DNA from: Flavobacterium sp. SLB02
GTDB taxonomy: Bacteria; Bacteroidota; Bacteroidia; Flavobacteriales; Flavobacteriaceae
Direction: 5' to 3'
DNA: 64,000 nt
NCBI RefSeq assembly: GCF_009664855.1
Contig: NZ_CP045928.1
Location: 2,759,755 to 2,823,754, forward strand
The translations under genes and the position numbers were made by a program. This document shows, in pieces, positions 31,361 to 40,464 of the stretch. Each line of letters begins with the position of its first letter. The stretch's first letter is position 1. The notes below the pieces were generated by a model that searched no databases, was not told where the DNA came from, and saw only the letters and a program-made list of their open reading frames with translations.

Positions 31361-33289
31361 TTACTTTATAAACTGAATAATAAACCCACCTTTTGGAGCT
31401 AAATTATAATGCCATTTTGAAGTTATAGGATGAGTTTCTACTTTAAATTCCATTAAAGAATCTTTTCCTTCGGAGATAATTCTGAATTTTGAGAAGCCTT
31501 TGCCGTATTTTTTGAGATCTATAGAAATTGGCTCTGCTGCATTTGTACCATTTATCCCTACGATATAAGAAAGGTTGTCTTTTTGGCGAGCCAAAACTAT
31601 CGATTTCCCGGGATCTGCAATAATATATTCTGTTCTATCCCAGGTTGCCGGCATTTCTTTCAATAAATTTTTAAGCGCATCAGGAAGTGAATTAAAAACC
31701 TCTTCCGAATCGGCAAAATGGATAATTCCTGATGTATAAATCATCGCCATAGCCAACTCATGTGTTGCCGTATTTAAACGTGTGTATTTTCTAAAAGTCA
31801 ATGCAAAGGGCGTATAATCAGCAGGTCCGGCTACATTTCTTGTAAAAGGTAATACTGTATTTTGTTCTGCTGCTTTTTCAGGGAATCTTGGTTCATAAAA
31901 ATAACTTTCGGTTCCTAAAATAGCTTCTGCCGTTACAAAATTCGGCCATGTTCTATGCCAGCCTCTTGGTATTGTTGTACCATGTAAATTAACTAACAAA
32001 TGTTCTTTGGCAGCATCTTCAAAAACACCTTGCAGTGCAGCCATAACCTCTTGGCGATCTGAGCACCAAAAATCTATTTTAACGCCTCTTACGCCCATTT
32101 GAGCCAATTCTTTGAACCTGTTTTTTCTTTTTCCCGAATCAAAATACTCCGCCGAATATCCCCAAACTAATGGTTGAACTCCTTTTGATAATGCATAATC
32201 AATAATCTTTCCTTCTTTATTCGCTTTTTCCCATCCGGCATCAAAAAGCGTATATCTAAACCCAAATGAAGCCGAAACATCCGTGAATTTATTATACATT
32301 TCTGGCGTAAAATCTTCAGGATGTGACCACCATGACCATGCCGCTTTTCCGGGAATGATCCAGGAAGTATCTTCAATTTTTGAGGCCGGAGCTAAATCTG
32401 TAATCATAGTCGACAATAATATATCTCCTGCTTTATCGCCAATCATGATGACTCTCCAGGGCATTGTCCATGGCAAACTTGACTCAGGATAAACCTCTTT
32501 ATCTGCTAAAGGCAACGTAAATTTTTCGTCTTTTTTAGCAAATCCTATGCTGTAAATTCCGCCCTTAGAATCAGGTAATAAATGACATCCGGGGAATGTA
32601 CCGTCTGCTCCTGATTCTGCAATCAGCACCCAGTTTTTAGTATCATTTACATTAAAAAGTGCCGGCATACACCAACCCACAGATTCATTTCGCGCACCAC
32701 TTATTGGATCTCCGGATTTTACATTTACATAAAAATCCTCATAACCTGGCGTATAATCTCCTGCTTTATTATAAGGTTGAAGCCAGCCTTTTGCATTTTG
32801 TTCGATATGAAATCCTGTAATTTCATTGGTAACAACTCTCTTTTGATTTTCCTTTTCAGTGAATTTATATCTAAAAGCAACGCCTTCTGAGCCTGCAATT
32901 AAATCTATTGTCATAAAAGCACCTTGTTTGTTTTTGAATGTTACGCTTTTGCTTTTAAAGACATGATCTGCGACTTTATTATTAGCCACTTTAAGTTCAT
33001 ATTTTTCACGCTTTTCTTCAACAGGCGAAACTTTTTCAACCGACAAACCAGCTGTAAAATCATTATTTTCCAAACTCAAACCAAGTGGAGAATCCAGAAT
33101 TATCGTTTTATCCTTGCGCGTAACGGTATAAGACAACTTTCCATCTTGACTTAAAGACAAAGTAATCTTATTTAGATTGTCCTTAGACTTCAGGTCAAGT
33201 GCAGTATTTTGGGCTTTACCACTTGTCAGCACAAAAAATACTGCGGGTATTAGCAAATTTAAAGATCGATGAAGAATCATTTTTTTCAT
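31361..33289 (-). CDS. GH97 glycoside hydrolase, retaining alpha-galactosidase type
   Basis: A 642-residue periplasmic enzyme with signal peptide (about 1-26), N-terminal beta-sandwich (30-280), TIM barrel (about 290-560) and C-terminal sheet. GH97 has an inverting alpha-glucoside branch (SusB) and a retaining alpha-galactosidase branch (BT1871). Here the strand-4 motif GVRGVKIDFWCSD supplies a nucleophile Asp406, and Glu461 in LGTESYF lies 55 residues on, the same spacing I recall for D415/E470 of BT1871, so it should be a retaining alpha-galactosidase. galM lies 211 bases upstream on the same strand, fitting galactose release. Confidence 0.9.
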   Translation of the reverse strand: MKKMILHRSLNLLIPAVFFVLTSGKAQNTALDLKSKDNLNKITLSLSQDGKLSYTVTRKDKTIILDSPLGLSLENNDFTAGLSVEKVSPVEEKREKYELKVANNKVADHVFKSKSVTFKNKQGAFMTIDLIAGSEGVAFRYKFTEKENQKRVVTNEITGFHIEQNAKGWLQPYNKAGDYTPGYEDFYVNVKSGDPISGARNESVGWCMPALFNVNDTKNWVLIAESGADGTFPGCHLLPDSKGGIYSIGFAKKDEKFTLPLADKEVYPESSLPWTMPWRVIMIGDKAGDILLSTMITDLAPASKIEDTSWIIPGKAAWSWWSHPEDFTPEMYNKFTDVSASFGFRYTLFDAGWEKANKEGKIIDYALSKGVQPLVWGYSAEYFDSGKRKNRFKELAQMGVRGVKIDFWCSDRQEVMAALQGVFEDAAKEHLLVNLHGTTIPRGWHRTWPNFVTAEAILGTESYFYEPRFPEKAAEQNTVLPFTRNVAGPADYTPFALTFRKYTRLNTATHELAMAMIYTSGIIHFADSEEVFNSLPDALKNLLKEMPATWDRTEYIIADPGKSIVLARQKDNLSYIVGINGTNAAEPISIDLKKYGKGFSKFRIISEGKDSLMEFKVETHPITSKWHYNLAPKGGFIIQFIK

Positions 33290-33334
33290 TATATAGTTTT
33301 TAGAGATTAGTTTTTAAATTTTATTGTTTCGTAA

Positions 33335-33494
33335 AGTTTTTTAGTCACGAATTCACGAATTATTTTCTTCACGCAGATTTAAAAAGATTTAAGCTGATAA
33401 GTACATATCTATTTAATAAAAATCTAAAATTAAATTTGCTCTAATCTGTCACCCGAGCGATAGCGAACAGACGAAGTAAATCTGCGTGAAAAAA
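33335..33494. repeat. Intergenic inverted repeat between galM and the GH97 gene
   Basis: TTCACGCAGATTTA (33368-33381) pairs with TAAATCTGCGTGAA (33477-33490). The inner CACCCGAGCGATAGCGAACA block is the inverse of a block at 10110-10136. The element may attenuate read-through from galM into the GH97 gene; no separate promoter with a good consensus was seen for the latter. Confidence 0.65.
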
Positions 33495-33500
33495 ATCATT

Positions 33501-34550
33501 TTAATCCTCATCATCGGTGGCATATTTTAGATTCATGACATCAAAACTATAGGTAATCGTTTCATTATAAAATTCTCCGGATCCGAATATAGTATTCGAA
33601 AAATGCTCGTGATTTGGACTATCCGGATAATATTGGCATTCTAAACATACTCCGTCAAAAGGTTTGTACAACTTAGAATGTTCTCCCATTATTTTACTGT
33701 TTAAATAGTCTCCTGTATACAATTGCACGCCGGGATACGAAGTCTGTACACGCATTTTTCTTCCTGATTCTTCTTCTGATAATTCGCAAACAAAATCAGG
33801 TTGTGTTTTATCTTTATCAAAAATGTAAAAAACATTCAGTCCCTTGTTTTGCATGACTTCACCTAGCTTTTTATTTGAAAATGAAAGTTTATCTGCAGCA
33901 ACAATTTCTCCTGTAGGAATATAATCAGGCGTACTTTCTAATATAGAATTTGAGCGAATGGTAAGATGATGGTTCTGTATTTTATCCCTGCAGCCTGATA
34001 AATTGAAATACGAATGATTGGTGAAATTTAGTAGAGTTTTTTCATCAGAAATAGCCAGATATTTGATTTTTAATTCATTTCTGTTGGTCCAATTATAAAT
34101 AACTTCGGTTTTTAAATTTCCGGGGAAACCTCCTTCTCCATCTTTGCTGTCAAGCGTAAAAATTACGTCATCATCTATTACAAGAAAATCAAATACTTTG
34201 CTGTTGAATCCTGCTGAACCGCTGTGATTATTGTTTTTGCCATCATTTTTATCCAGATGATAAATTTTATTTCCAATAGAAAATTCGGCATTATTGATTC
34301 GGTTAGAGAAACGTCCGATGGTTGCACCTATATAACAGTTATCATTTATGTATCCTTTTAAAGTTGGAAATCCCAAAACCACATTTTCCTTCTTTCCGTT
34401 TTTGTCCGGTACTACTATGGACTTTACTATGGCTCCATAGTTAAGTAGTTCAACGTAGTTTCCGTGAACATTGGTTAGTTTGAATTTAAAGATTTCTCTG
34501 CCATCGCATACGCCAAAAGGTTCGCATACAATCTTATTAATAGGATTCAT
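33501..34550 (-). CDS. galM: Galactose mutarotase (aldose 1-epimerase)
   Basis: A 349-residue cytosolic enzyme interconverting alpha- and beta-galactose (or glucose). Motifs are IVVPDKNGKKENVVLGFP, GATIGRFSNRINNAEF with the sugar-binding Arg/Asn, NHSYFNLSG with the general-acid His, YTGDYLNSK, and GVCLECQYYPDSPNH with the catalytic Glu. No signal peptide. Its promoter (34598-34626) lies next to a TCCAT direct repeat also found in front of the symporter gene, so it is likely coactivated with the GH97 and transport genes. It provides the first cytosolic step after galactose uptake. Confidence 0.92.
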   Translation of the reverse strand: MNPINKIVCEPFGVCDGREIFKFKLTNVHGNYVELLNYGAIVKSIVVPDKNGKKENVVLGFPTLKGYINDNCYIGATIGRFSNRINNAEFSIGNKIYHLDKNDGKNNNHSGSAGFNSKVFDFLVIDDDVIFTLDSKDGEGGFPGNLKTEVIYNWTNRNELKIKYLAISDEKTLLNFTNHSYFNLSGCRDKIQNHHLTIRSNSILESTPDYIPTGEIVAADKLSFSNKKLGEVMQNKGLNVFYIFDKDKTQPDFVCELSEEESGRKMRVQTSYPGVQLYTGDYLNSKIMGEHSKLYKPFDGVCLECQYYPDSPNHEHFSNTIFGSGEFYNETITYSFDVMNLKYATDDED

Positions 34551-34597: not shown

Positions 34598-34655
34598 CAA
34601 ATGTAATCCTGATTATTTTTATCAAAATGGACATTTTTTCTAAAAACATGGATTA
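34598..34655 (-). promoter_or_regulatory. galM promoter with AraC-type direct-repeat operator
   Basis: On the minus strand: -7 TACATTTG (34598-34605), 17-bp spacer, TTTG (34623-34626), then TCCAT (34627-34631) and a second TCCAT (34648-34652), start to start exactly 21 bp, with an A/T-rich stretch between and TAA before the distal copy. The proximal copy abuts the -33 box as expected for a class II activator site. The matching site is at 35647-35672. Confidence 0.65.
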
Positions 34656-34687
34656 AATTACGATATTTGAAAAATAGTCTCATCCAA

Positions 34688-35596
34688 ATGAAGAATTCAT
34701 CACAAAAGGAAAAAATAAAAGTTAGAGAAGGTTTTTTAGGACAACGCATGATCGTGATCCCTAAAAACATCCTTTCGAGCATCAAAAAGAATGCGCTTAT
34801 TGCCAGTTTGTATTTTACGGATATTGGCGTTTTCCCTAATGCAAGCCACCACTCGATGAAACGAAAACACGGAAGCAAACAATACATCCTGATTTATTGT
34901 TATAAAGGCGAAGGTATTATCAGTAAAGAAAATAAAACCATAACGCTAAAAGCGAATACCTTTTATATAATACCTCCTGAAGTGGCGCATGACTATTATG
35001 CTTTGAAACAAAATCCGTGGAGTATTTACTGGATTCACTTTACCGGGCCTCAAGCACCGCATTTCTATGAGAAATTCATCACCGAATTTCCAGACACAGC
35101 GCCGCAATTATCACTGGAAGAAAGACGTATCGAACTTTTCGAAAATATACTGGATGTTATGGAAGACGGTTACAGTGCCAGTAATCTTGAATATGCCAAT
35201 CTCTCGTTATGGCAACTATTGAATGCTTTTTTATATGAGCGATTTTTCATCAAAAAAAACAAGATATTTTCAGAGGATAATACTATTGAGTCCTCCATTG
35301 ACTATATGAAAAAACATTTGGATTTATCCTTAAAAATCAATGATGTAGCGGCTTATTTCAACTACTCGTCATCGCACTTTTTTACCTTGTTTAAGAAGCA
35401 AACCGGCTACTCTCCTATACATTATTTCAACTATTTAAAAATGCAGAAAGCCTGTCAGTACCTCAGCTTTACCACTATGAGTATAAAGGAAATAAGCTTT
35501 GCTTTAGGGTTCAATGATCCGTTGTATTTCTCTCGTTTATTCAAAAAAATAATGAGTACTTCACCCATACAATACCGTACTGAATACAAGCAGTAA
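34688..35596 (+). CDS. AraC-family activator of the galactoside module
   Basis: A 302-residue protein with an AraC-type sugar-binding cupin (about 20-165: FTDIGVFPNASHHSMKRKHGSKQYILIYCYKGEGII, FYIIPPEVAHDYYALKQNPWSIYWIHFTGP) and two helix-turn-helix motifs at the end (about 205-300, LSLKINDVAAYFNYSSSHFFTLFKKQTGYSPIHYFNYLKMQKACQYLSFTTMSIKEISFALGFNDPLYFSRLFKK). The cupin resembles that of arabinose/galactose-sensing AraC proteins. The ATG at 34688 is preferred to a TTG 21 bases earlier. It lies between the galM and symporter promoters, each carrying the same 21-bp direct repeat. Confidence 0.9.
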   Translation: MKNSSQKEKIKVREGFLGQRMIVIPKNILSSIKKNALIASLYFTDIGVFPNASHHSMKRKHGSKQYILIYCYKGEGIISKENKTITLKANTFYIIPPEVAHDYYALKQNPWSIYWIHFTGPQAPHFYEKFITEFPDTAPQLSLEERRIELFENILDVMEDGYSASNLEYANLSLWQLLNAFLYERFFIKKNKIFSEDNTIESSIDYMKKHLDLSLKINDVAAYFNYSSSHFFTLFKKQTGYSPIHYFNYLKMQKACQYLSFTTMSIKEISFALGFNDPLYFSRLFKKIMSTSPIQYRTEYKQ

Positions 35597-35646
35597 CGCA
35601 ATTGTTTTCGTATTTTAGCCCAAAGCATCAAAAAATCGTATTATAG

Positions 35647-35702
35647 TCCATCTATTCAAAAAAAATATCCATAAATCAAAGGTTCCTATTCCGCTAATTT
35701 TA
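35647..35702 (+). promoter_or_regulatory. Symporter promoter with AraC-type direct-repeat operator
   Basis: TCCAT at 35647-35651 and 35668-35672, start to start exactly 21 bp, with a run of A between and TAG before the distal copy. A -7-like TAATTTTA lies at 35695-35702, 22 bases after the proximal TCCAT; in the galM promoter this distance is 21. Confidence 0.6.
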
Positions 35703-35724: not shown

Positions 35725-37134
35725 ATGAAAAATTATAATTATACCTTTTTACTATCAATTAGCCTTGTTGCAGCATTGGGTGGTCTACTCTTTGGTTACG
35801 ACTGGGTTGTAATAGGTGGTGCAAAACCATTTTACGAAATTTATTTTGGCATTTCAGATTCTCCGGCTTTACAAGGCTGGGCCATGAGTAGTGCCCTTGT
35901 AGGCTGTGTTGCGGGAGCAGCAGTTGCCGGAAAACTGGCAGATACCTACGGAAGACGCCCAATGTTGATTGTTGCCGCAGTATTATTCTCTATATCGGCA
36001 ATTGGTACCGGAGCTTCAGAAACCTTTACCATATTTATTATCTGGCGTATTATTGGCGGTATCGGGATTGGGATCGCCTCTACAATTTCGCCCTTATATA
36101 TTGCCGAAATCGCTCCGCAGGAAACACGAGGCCTTTTTGTATCGATCAACCAACTTACTGTAGTAATAGGTATTCTTGCCGCACAAATTACCAATATGTT
36201 GATTACCGAGGTTATTCCTGCAGGTTATACGCATGCCGAAATTTTGGCTTCCTGGAACGGACAAACCGGCTGGAGATGGATGTTTTGGGCAGGATTTTTC
36301 CCGGCCGTTTTATTCTTTATTCTAATGTTTTTAATTCCTGAAAGCCCCAGATATCTGGCTAAAAAAGGAAATTACGATTCGGCAGAAAATACACTTACAA
36401 AAATTGGAGGTTTGGCCTACGCCAAAGAAGCTTCTGTAAAAATAAAAGAAACTTTTACGCATGAAACCGAGAAAACCGATTTCAGAATGTTGCTGGACAA
36501 AAAAGCTTTACCAATACTTGTTATAGGGATTGTATTAGCTGCTTTTCAGCAATGGTGCGGTATTAATATCATTTTCAACTATGCTCAGGAAATCTTTGTT
36601 TCAGCGGGTTATAGTATCAATGATTTGTTCATGAATATTGTCATTACCGGAAGCATCAACCTTATTTTTACTCTTGTTGCGATGGGAACTGTAGACAAAA
36701 TTGGTCGTAAAAAACTAATGCTTTTTGGTTCCGGTGCACTTGCTGTAATCTATGCTTTATTGGGTTATTTTTATTATACCAATGTAACCGGTTTCCCTTT
36801 ATTATTACTAGTATTGTTAGCCATCGCTATTTATGCAATGTCCCTCGCTCCTATTACCTGGGTAATTTTATCTGAAATTTTCCCTAACCGAATCAGAGGT
36901 GTTGCGATGTCTGTAGCCACATTTGCACTCTGGATCGCCTCTGCGCTTTTAGTACAAACCTTCCCTATTTTCAATGAATATCTGGGTACATCAGGCACTT
37001 TCTGGTTGTACGGGATTATCTGTGCCTTAGGATTCGTGTTTGTATTTAGAAAACTTCCTGAAACCAAAAACAAAAGTCTTGAAGAGATTGAAGAACTGAT
37101 GGTTTCTGATAAAAATTCAAAGAATATTCAATAA
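35725..37134 (+). CDS. Sugar:H+ symporter, MFS sugar porter family
   Basis: A 469-residue inner-membrane protein with 12 helices and the sugar-porter signatures GGLLFGYDWVVIGGA (helix 1), GKLADTYGRRPML (loop 2-3), IPESPRYLAKKG (end of helix 6), QQWCGINIIFNYAQEI (helix 7), DKIGRKKLMLFG (loop 8-9) and LPETKNKSLEEIE (C-terminus). It resembles XylE, GalP and AraE; with galM and an alpha-galactosidase nearby, galactose is the most likely substrate. The DUF5107-TPR gene follows after 18 bases, so the two form an operon under the AraC-type site. Confidence 0.9.
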   Translation: MKNYNYTFLLSISLVAALGGLLFGYDWVVIGGAKPFYEIYFGISDSPALQGWAMSSALVGCVAGAAVAGKLADTYGRRPMLIVAAVLFSISAIGTGASETFTIFIIWRIIGGIGIGIASTISPLYIAEIAPQETRGLFVSINQLTVVIGILAAQITNMLITEVIPAGYTHAEILASWNGQTGWRWMFWAGFFPAVLFFILMFLIPESPRYLAKKGNYDSAENTLTKIGGLAYAKEASVKIKETFTHETEKTDFRMLLDKKALPILVIGIVLAAFQQWCGINIIFNYAQEIFVSAGYSINDLFMNIVITGSINLIFTLVAMGTVDKIGRKKLMLFGSGALAVIYALLGYFYYTNVTGFPLLLLVLLAIAIYAMSLAPITWVILSEIFPNRIRGVAMSVATFALWIASALLVQTFPIFNEYLGTSGTFWLYGIICALGFVFVFRKLPETKNKSLEEIEELMVSDKNSKNIQ

Positions 37135-37152
37135 TTTAAATTTCATTACATC

Positions 37153-40100
37153 ATGCAAAAAGTAAATGTTTGGAAGGAAAAAATAATCCTACCAACCTAT
37201 GAGGTGGGCAAACCTGAAAAAAATCCTGTATTCATTGAAAAAAGAGTTTATCAGGGAAGTAACGGATCTGTATATCCTTATCCGGTTATTGAAAAAATCG
37301 CAGACGAAAAAGTCGATAAAGAATATCAGGCCGTTTATCTTGAAAATGAGTTTGTTAAAATAATGATCTTGCCTGAACTTGGCGGACGTGTGCATATGGC
37401 GTACGACAAGACCAAAGAACGTCATTTTGTATATTATAATCAGGTTGTAAAACCAGCATTAGTAGGACTTACAGGCCCTTGGATTTCGGGCGGAATTGAG
37501 TTTAACTGGCCGCAACACCACAGACCAACGACTTTTGATCCGGTAGATTTTACCATCAAAGAACATGAAGATGGAAGCGCAACAGTTTGGTGCAGCGAGG
37601 TTGAACGTATGTTTAGAACCAAAGGTATGGCAGGATTTAGATTATATCCTGACAAAGCATATTTAGAAATCAAAGCGCAATTGTACAACAGAACTTCGTT
37701 CCCACAAACCTTTTTATGGTGGGCAAATCCTGCGGTTAAAGTAAACGACGATTATCAATCGGTTTTTCCACCGGATGTAAATGCTGTTTTTGACCACGGT
37801 AAACGTGATGTTTCGTCTTTTCCAATTGCAAAAGGAACATATTATAAGGTAGATTATTCACCAGGAACTGATATTTCGCGCTATAAGAATATTCCAGTTC
37901 CAACCTCTTACATGGCGATTGCGTCTAAATATAATTTTGTGGGCGGATACGAAAATGATTCAAAAGGCGGATTATTGCACGTAGCCAACCACCATGTTTC
38001 TCCGGGAAAAAAACAATGGACTTGGGGACATGGCGATTTTGGTCGTGCCTGGGATCGTAACCTTACCGATGAAGATGGTCCGTATATCGAATTGATGTGT
38101 GGAGTTTACACGGATAATCAGCCTGATTTTACGTGGATTATGCCAGGTGAACAAAAAGATTTTACACAATATTTTATGCCATACCGTGATTTAGGTATTG
38201 TGAAAAATGCGACCAAAAATGCAATGGTTAATCTGGAAAGTATCGACAATAAATTAGTGATTAAAGCCTATACAACGGGCGTTTACCCAAATACTACTGT
38301 TACTTTAAAAAATAACGACACTGTTTTATTCCAAAAACAATACGATGCTTCTCCCTACAATTCATTCGAAGAAACGATTGATTTTGAGAATACTTCTTTA
38401 GAAGGATTATCGATTTCAGTAACTGATGCTGATAATAAAGTTTTGGTTGATTGGATTTATGAAGGACAAAATGAAGACGAAATTCCTGAAGCCGCAAAAC
38501 CTGCCCTTGCTCCGGAAGCTATCGAAAGTAATGAGCAATTGTTCCTTACAGCGCAGCATTTAGAGCAATACAGACACGCTACTTATAGTCCGATTCCGTA
38601 TTACAAAGAAGCTATAAAACGTGATGCTGGCGACGTTCGTTCGAATAATGCAATGGGATTATGGTTTATGCGAAGAGCTAAATTTACAGAAGCTGAACCT
38701 TATTTTAGAGCGGCTATCAAAACTTTGACGCAAAGAAATCCGAATCCGTATGATGGAGAACCTTATTTCAATTTAGGTTTATGTCTTAAATATCAAGATA
38801 AAAACAAAGAAGCTTATGATGCTTTTTATAAAGCAACATGGAATGCGGCCTGGCAAAATCAAGGTTACTTCTATGTAGCCCAACTTGACGCATTAAATGG
38901 TGATTATGAATTGGCTTTAACACACATCAAAAAAGCAATTTCTAAAAACACCGAAGATCATAAAGCGTTGCATTTACAAGTCGCTTTCCTTAGAAAATTA
39001 AACCAAAAAGAAAAAGCGCTTGAACTTGCGAATAATTATCTAGAAAATGATTGTTTCAATTTTGGATTACTTTTCGAGAAATATATTTTAAGCAATGACA
39101 AAAAAGACCTTGCGTATTTTAATTCATTAATCAGAAACAACATTCATACGTATATAGAATATGCATTAGATTATGCTGCTGCAGGTTTCTATCAGGAAGC
39201 TGTAAGTTTATTAACCGAAGGGTTAAAAGACGAAGAAACGTATCCAATGGCGTGGTATTATGCAGGTTCGTTCTATGAAAAATTAAATGATTTCGGTCAA
39301 GCCGAAAAATGCTTCAAAATGGCGTCTCAGGCAAAACCAGATTATTGTTTTCCAAATCAGCTTGAAGCTGCATTGGTACTTCAAAATGTAATTGAGAAAC
39401 AAACCAATGATGCAAAAGCTTTGTATTATTTAGGAAACTTCTGGTACGCTTCTAAATATTATGATGATGCAATTTCTTGCTGGGAACAATCGGTAGCTAT
39501 CGATGATACTTTCCCGACTGTGCATCGTAATTTGGCTTTGGCGTATTACAATAAATTAGAAAACGAACAAAAAGCGCTTGCCAGTTTAGAGAAAGCATTC
39601 TCATTAGATTTAGAAGATTCAAGAATCCTAATGGAATTGGATCAATTGTACAAACGTTTGAACAGGGATTTGGTTTTCAGACTGGCTTTCTTAGAGAAAC
39701 ATTTAGAATTGGTGATTCAGCGTGATGATGTTTATTTAGAAAGAGTGGCTTTGTACAACCTTTTAGGTAAACACGATAAAGCCCTAACTTTATTACAAAA
39801 CCGAATTTTCCATCCGTGGGAAGGTGGCGAAGGAAAAGTAAGCGGACAATATCTCACCAGTTTAACTAAAATTGCCAAACAACAAATCTCAGAAGGCAAT
39901 TATGATAAAGCCATTGAGCTTTTAGAACAAGCGCAAACTTATCCTGATAATCTTGGCGAAGGAAAATTACCGGGCGCTCAGGAAAATGATATTCATTACT
40001 GGTTAGGTGTTGCTTTCGATAAAAAGAACAATCAAGAAGAAGCCAATAACTGGTGGCATAAAGCCACTCAGGGATTAGAAGATCCAACGGCAGCGATTTT

Positions 40101-40464
40101 CTACAACGATCAGCAACCGGATAAAATTTTCTATCAAGGTCTGGCTTTCTTAAAATTAAATGATCTTGCTGAAGCCAATAAACGTTTCGAAAAGCTGGTG
40201 GCTTACGCTCAAAAACATCTAAACGATCATGTTATGATTGATTATTTTGCGGTATCACTACCTGATCTTATGATTTGGGAAGATGACTTAGACAAACGAA
40301 ATAAAATTCACTGCTTGTACATGCAGGGATTAGGGCTTTTAGGTTTGGATAAAAAAGCAGAAGCTGAAGAAACTTTTACAACCGTTCTTTCTGAAGAAAA
40401 AAGCCATTCAGGCGTTACCATACATTTGTCTTTATTGAAAAATGAAGAATCCGTTTCTGTTTAA
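37153..40464 (+). CDS. DUF5107 mutarotase-like protein with long TPR region
   Basis: A 1103-residue cytosolic protein with no signal peptide. The N-terminal part (about 20-360) is DUF5107: QAVYLENEFVKIMILPELGGRVHMAYDKTKERHFVYYN, GPWISGGIEFNWPQHHRPTTFDPVD, LWWANPAVKVNDDYQSVFPPDV and WTWGHGDFGRAWDRNLTDEDGPYIELM, a beta-sandwich resembling aldose mutarotases, with several His/Asp/Glu that could form an active site. A linker (360-470) leads to at least ten tetratricopeptide-like helical pairs (about 470-1090). No enzymatic reaction is established to my knowledge. Cotranscription with a sugar symporter and probable coregulation with galM suggest it acts on or senses an incoming sugar. Confidence 0.88.
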   Translation: MQKVNVWKEKIILPTYEVGKPEKNPVFIEKRVYQGSNGSVYPYPVIEKIADEKVDKEYQAVYLENEFVKIMILPELGGRVHMAYDKTKERHFVYYNQVVKPALVGLTGPWISGGIEFNWPQHHRPTTFDPVDFTIKEHEDGSATVWCSEVERMFRTKGMAGFRLYPDKAYLEIKAQLYNRTSFPQTFLWWANPAVKVNDDYQSVFPPDVNAVFDHGKRDVSSFPIAKGTYYKVDYSPGTDISRYKNIPVPTSYMAIASKYNFVGGYENDSKGGLLHVANHHVSPGKKQWTWGHGDFGRAWDRNLTDEDGPYIELMCGVYTDNQPDFTWIMPGEQKDFTQYFMPYRDLGIVKNATKNAMVNLESIDNKLVIKAYTTGVYPNTTVTLKNNDTVLFQKQYDASPYNSFEETIDFENTSLEGLSISVTDADNKVLVDWIYEGQNEDEIPEAAKPALAPEAIESNEQLFLTAQHLEQYRHATYSPIPYYKEAIKRDAGDVRSNNAMGLWFMRRAKFTEAEPYFRAAIKTLTQRNPNPYDGEPYFNLGLCLKYQDKNKEAYDAFYKATWNAAWQNQGYFYVAQLDALNGDYELALTHIKKAISKNTEDHKALHLQVAFLRKLNQKEKALELANNYLENDCFNFGLLFEKYILSNDKKDLAYFNSLIRNNIHTYIEYALDYAAAGFYQEAVSLLTEGLKDEETYPMAWYYAGSFYEKLNDFGQAEKCFKMASQAKPDYCFPNQLEAALVLQNVIEKQTNDAKALYYLGNFWYASKYYDDAISCWEQSVAIDDTFPTVHRNLALAYYNKLENEQKALASLEKAFSLDLEDSRILMELDQLYKRLNRDLVFRLAFLEKHLELVIQRDDVYLERVALYNLLGKHDKALTLLQNRIFHPWEGGEGKVSGQYLTSLTKIAKQQISEGNYDKAIELLEQAQTYPDNLGEGKLPGAQENDIHYWLGVAFDKKNNQEEANNWWHKATQGLEDPTAAIFYNDQQPDKIFYQGLAFLKLNDLAEANKRFEKLVAYAQKHLNDHVMIDYFAVSLPDLMIWEDDLDKRNKIHCLYMQGLGLLGLDKKAEAEETFTTVLSEEKSHSGVTIHLSLLKNEESVSV

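Follow-up and report, generated by a model that had tools for sequence, protein, structure and literature searches.

The DNA analyzed here (the window) is a 64,000-nt stretch of the genome of Flavobacterium sp. SLB02 (GCF_009664855.1), spanning positions 2,759,755 to 2,823,754 of the forward strand of NZ_CP045928.1. As can be seen in Table 1, it contains an araC gene flanked on one side by the leftward galM and GH97 genes and on the other by the rightward MFS and DUF5107-TPR genes, with a TCCAT-N16-TCCAT direct repeat in each of the two intervening regions.

Table 1. Genes and predicted regulatory elements of the araC locus (window coordinates)
Feature	Position	Strand	Remarks
AraC-family regulator (AraC_binding + HTH_18)	34688..35596	+	302 aa; recognition helix GFNDPLYFSR
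Alternative TTG start of araC	34667	+	
galM, aldose 1-epimerase	33501..34550	-	First gene downstream of operator 1
GH97 glycosidase	31361..33289	-	Probably cotranscribed with galM
MFS sugar porter (XylE-like)	35725..37134	+	First gene downstream of operator 2
DUF5107-TPR protein	37153..40464	+	18 bp after the MFS gene
Operator 1 (predicted), TCCAT-N16-TCCAT	34627..34652	-	galM promoter, between galM and araC
Operator 2 (predicted), TCCAT-N16-TCCAT	35647..35672	+	MFS promoter, between araC and the MFS gene
-7 box, galM promoter	34598..34605	-	TACATTTG; 21 bp past the proximal TCCAT
-7 box, MFS promoter	35695..35702	+	TAATTTTA; 22 bp past the proximal TCCAT; one mismatch to TANNTTTG

The initial annotation had described these repeats as one AraC-type operator shared by two promoters, and most of its description holds. 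Both 21-bp repeats are present, each preceded by the TA(A/G) reported ahead of the distal copy (TTTAATCCAT and TATAGTCCAT), the 21 or 22 bases given between proximal copy and -7 box are found in the galM and MFS promoters, respectively, and the araC gene does stand between the two operators. The -33 box said to adjoin the repeat, however, is seen in the galM promoter, in which TTTG abuts the proximal copy, but not in the MFS promoter, which has AAAT at this place. The pattern occurs exactly twice in the window, where 0.11 occurrences are expected, and only 1 of 100 shuffles reaches two. A second AraC-family gene of the window (HTH domain from 21916, helix GYEDPAYFSR) is without any TCCAT site there. 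In the gap between galM and GH97, no TANNTTTG was found either in the window or in 20 orthologous loci, and GH97 is thus probably carried on the galM transcript. The length of this gap varies among orthologs (29-42 bp between matched stretches in 9 of the 20), and GH97 is itself a variable member, which does not adjoin galM in three loci (L045, L046, and L049). The gap (33290-33500) also holds a dispersed repeat, TTCGTGAATTCGTGRCNAAAAA, at 33338-33359, with 16 genome copies at one mismatch or less versus none in the reversed control, and an inverted TCACGCAGATTT/AAATCTGCGTGA pair recognized by eye.

The regulator itself displays the two domains typical of the AraC family. Its C terminus matches the double helix-turn-helix (HTH) of AraC/XylS proteins (HTH_18, PF12833; 76.3 bits, cut-off 33.6), and its sensor matches the AraC-type cupin (PF02311; 53.6 bits, cut-off 21.1). 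Pfam detects neither a histidine kinase nor a receiver domain, the marks of a hybrid two-component regulator (HTCS), in its 302 residues. The best NCBIfam model is that of E. coli AraC (NF007860), with a score of 116.5 bits that lies under the cut-off of 208. When the PDB was searched with a profile of the family, the two top hits were nearly tied, namely the DNA-binding domain of E. coli AraC (1.2e-23) and AraT 6swi (1.4e-23), and in a single-sequence search AraT ranked above E. coli AraC. An AlphaFold model of the protein has a mean pLDDT of 90.7. Within it, the sensor domain is most similar to BgaR, a lactose sensor, with a Z score of 17.6 and an rmsd of 2.8 over 158 residues at 17% sequence identity, a likeness of fold. 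The E. coli AraC sensor is matched with Z scores of 13.6 and below, over 138-143 residues. To find relatives, we scanned public genomes with the AraC protein and used the best 80 loci of 270, which consist of 24 close orthologs (L026-L049; 66-98% identity, mostly named Flavobacterium) and 56 divergent loci (L050-L105; ~39-46% AraC identity). Together with the window, their AraC proteins form 44 clusters at 75% identity, and 46 of the 81 sequences make up the protein alignment, from which L084 was dropped owing to a stop inside its stretch.

As for the inducer, a galactose-type sugar is likely, and a galactoside module is plausible. Such a sugar is indicated by GalM, by GH97, and by the GH35 and GH2 genes that neighbor araC in divergent loci (6 and 19 loci, respectively, with one representative of each neighbor cluster confirmed by Pfam). 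The GH97 of the window reaches 226 of 800 bits with the NCBIfam alpha-galactosidase model, and its closest solved structure is 5xfm, which we take to be Bt_3661, an enzyme acting both as beta-L-arabinopyranosidase and as alpha-galactosidase. A passage of PMC10086023 names Bt_3661 as an enzyme with these two activities. That the inducer is instead L-arabinose or another pentose is a possibility to be taken seriously, even if we lean against it: this is the sugar class suggested by the GH97 match to 5xfm, by the XylE-like porter, and by kinship with E. coli AraC, the best NCBIfam model despite the subthreshold score. On the other hand, the sensor fits BgaR better than E. coli AraC, and the GH35 and GH2 neighbors speak for galactosides.

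The operators are conserved among the close orthologs. All 24 loci have an exact MFS-side site, and 23 of them an exact galM-side site, the contig of the remaining one (L048) ending there. When 23 sequences (the window and L026-L047) are compared, neither promoter shows any variation at the 10 box positions, and invariant columns account for 26/38 (galM side) and 30/38 (MFS side) positions of the 38-bp operators versus 16/99 and 43/90 elsewhere. Neither operator is the most conserved stretch of its region: among sliding windows, the galM-side one takes rank 2 of 100 and the MFS-side one rank 8 of 91. As for the possibility, considered in the initial annotation, that orthologous promoters might lack the repeat, we found it to be retained: the boxes are invariant, and the 21-bp geometry recurs phylum-wide.

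The window-type AraC family occurs across Bacteroidota, often beside MFS-DUF5107 genes, and the same spacing recurs among its divergent members. In the 300 bp preceding araC, the exact repeat at 21 bp is found in 19 of the 56 divergent loci, while 19 other spacings yield 0-1 each. With one mismatch or less, TCCAT is detected in 27 divergent loci, the highest count among 30 letter permutations (mean 2.8), followed by the overlapping word CCATT with 18. When a -7 box was required, the 57 loci L049-L105 yielded 36 sites at 21 bp (27 loci, 21 AraC clusters), 10 at 20 bp, and 0-3 at each of the remaining spacings between 13 and 30 bp. Three loci (L071, L097, and L104) have operators spaced by 20 bp in which the second copy reads TTCAT. 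A -7 box lies 20-23 bp downstream of 35/40 intergenic sites in L050-L105 versus 5/124 coding matches. Once close orthologs are included, these figures become 82/87, of which 79 are at 21-22 bp, versus 7/148 (of 246 pattern matches, the 11 that lay outside coding sequence and more than 400 bp from any gene were not counted). The difference in composition between intergenic and coding DNA favors -7 boxes in the former, a bias of which the spacing control is free. Overall, 50/80 loci and 22/44 clusters have an intergenic site followed by a -7 box, the other 30 loci having no qualifying site, although the 20-bp form occurs in 10 loci; because the loci are related, locus counts are not independent. 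The 31 nonredundant sites precede MFS (10), galM (4), DUF5107 (2), GH2 (2), SusC (2), GH35 (1), or other genes (10).

These 31 sites also reveal the organization of the half-site. TCCAT appears twice, and T[CA][GA]TAA stands ahead of the distal copy, beginning 11 bp upstream. E. coli AraC binds half-sites of the form TAGC-N7-TCCATA, as given in a passage of PMC4514859, and in the E. coli K-12 sequence they are 21 bp apart. Our regulator thus shares with E. coli AraC and its araI1-araI2 operator the protein family, a cupin sensor combined with two HTHs, and a half-site made of two boxes, box A starting 11 bp ahead of box B (TCCAT), directly repeated at 21 bp. The recognition helices are closely similar, FDDQLYFSR in E. 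coli and FNDPLYFSR here. In contrast, the targets are others, the promoter is of the Bacteroidota type, the second half-site has a full TCCAT in place of ACCTGA, and box A reads TCGT/TCAG rather than TAGC. Box A agrees with E. coli in position and only partly in letters, and it is clear only ahead of the distal copy.

At the genome scale, the specificity of the operator depends on how much of it is searched. The bare TCCAT-N16-TCCAT pattern, proposed at the outset for a genome scan, has 25 matches versus 18 for the reversed pattern and is therefore unspecific. When the -7 box is added (TANNTTT after 21 or 22 bp), only three exact matches are left in 6.36 Mb: operators 1 and 2 and a site at 898828. 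An extended consensus derived from orthologs, with up to three mismatches, retrieves operators 1 and 2 only, and its control none. Scans allowing two mismatches gave 65 and 75 matches versus 37 and 60 in reversed controls. Weak genome sites are thus mostly noise, and a wider regulon built on them is not credited. Of eight one-mismatch matches with a -7 box, we trust only the two found, like the site at 898828, in one HTCS locus, and not the six in other places. In 979 kb around AraC-type genes there are 10 good sites, five in the two loci whose regulators carry GFNDPLYFSR and five elsewhere, against 0-5 at other spacings, a count biased by the inclusion of one stretch (L162) precisely because a site was already known in it (two of the five sites lie there). 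An unsupervised search for any 5-mer repeated 21-22 bp before a -7 box gave a weak excess at spacing 21, with 10 rows in which one site is represented twice, versus 0-7 at the other spacings. Separately, a TGCTA-N16-TGCTA site at G000:C1:2226560, 21-22 bp ahead of a -7 box and 2.4 kb from an AraC-type gene (helix GFEDANYFIR), may represent this architecture built on a different 5-mer. Searched across 395 genomes of the phylum, the repeat with its -7 box has 24 matches in 21 genomes versus two for the reversed control. Nine precede MIOX (gene names by reading), in our genome and in eight further genomes of the genus, with GFNDPLYFSR in view in our genome and in seven of these eight. Three matches precede galM beside AraC, one lies in an AraC-MFS gap, one precedes an MFS gene, two precede SusC-like genes, seven are in coding sequence, and one is beside no AraC-type, MFS, or SusC-like gene.

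The HTCS locus (G000:C1 876-908 kb; L162 and L163) encodes GH89, SusCD, two GH92, a phosphoesterase, the HTCS, MIOX, and GH2. The exact site at 898828 is ahead of the MIOX-GH2 pair, and the one-mismatch sites are at 882237, before SusC-SusD, and 879656, before GH89. The HTCS itself (L163:2487-6521), 1.9 Mb away from the window regulator, consists of a propeller, a kinase, a receiver, and HTH_18. The genome has 81 HTH_18 matches, of which we examined 80, leaving out one under the family cut-off (4106051). GFNDPLYFSR is found in two of these domains, those of the window AraC and of this HTCS, and both loci carry the operator. YFSR, present in 9/80, is not predictive of a TCCAT site by itself. 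Bacteroides HTCSs have an AraC-type DNA-binding domain and direct repeats as well, the repeats averaging 21 bp according to an excerpt of PMC3878776, and differ from the window protein in that the latter has a cupin sensor. With an identical helix, and with the same operator exact or nearly so at three places in its own locus, the HTCS could read the galM and MFS sites wholly or in part, which would make the two regulons cross-talk. We consider this unlikely, because araC sits between the two operators, because in divergent loci the sites are ahead of genes adjoining araC, and because box A and the first HTH appear by eye to be unlike between the two regulators. The shared helix and the presence of the operator at the HTCS's own locus nevertheless make cross-talk testable.

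Our preferred reading is that the window AraC activates galM-GH97 and MFS-DUF5107 in response to a sugar, and we regard this as very probable. In AraC activation, a dimer lies on one face of the DNA, on sites two turns apart beside the -33 region of the promoter. Here, each 21-bp direct repeat would hold an AraC dimer, with both half-sites on the same side of the DNA. Within a half-site, box A (TCGT/TCAG-like, starting 11 bp upstream) would be contacted by the first HTH and box B by the second, through helix GFNDPLYFSR. There are 21-22 bp between the proximal half-site and the -7 box, so that this half-site would touch the -33 region, and bound AraC could contact RNA polymerase and turn on galM-GH97 leftward and MFS-DUF5107 rightward. 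As 35 bp separate operator 1 from the start codon of araC, this gene is probably autoregulated. The regulon predicted initially, comprising galM, GH97, the symporter, and DUF5107-TPR, fits this picture, as the window holds no other site with two mismatches or less and a -7 box. Were the protein mainly a repressor at both promoters, with sugar relieving repression, the proximity of operator 1 to the araC start would be accounted for, and E. coli AraC represses too; this seems very unlikely to us, given that in 79/82 sites the repeat is upstream of the -7 box at the 21-22 bp of an activator and that the MFS promoter has a poor -33 box. Finally, although the bare pattern is hardly enriched in the genome, it is extremely unlikely that the repeats arose by chance in A/T-rich promoters, an origin ruled out by their conservation and by the spacing, permutation, coding, -7 box, and reversed-pattern controls.

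Activation of this type is well known, and the window regulator, of which we found no description among the matches listed for open-licence PMC papers, would be a further example of it. What is surprising is that the operator persists phylum-wide and is common to an HTCS of the same genome. We tentatively propose that TCCAT is read by a portable helix, [ND]D[PQ]LYFSR: E. coli AraC and, within one bacterium, a cupin AraC and an HTCS would all use the same box B at the 21-bp spacing, with the AraC and HTCS regulons of this bacterium either wired together or separated by box A alone. If so, operators would be predictable from the helix. For a Bacteroidota-wide AraC family, our analysis supplies a candidate operator, promoter geometry, and regulon, and the helix and operator common to AraC and HTCS make it possible to ask directly how regulators of the AraC type avoid each other's targets.
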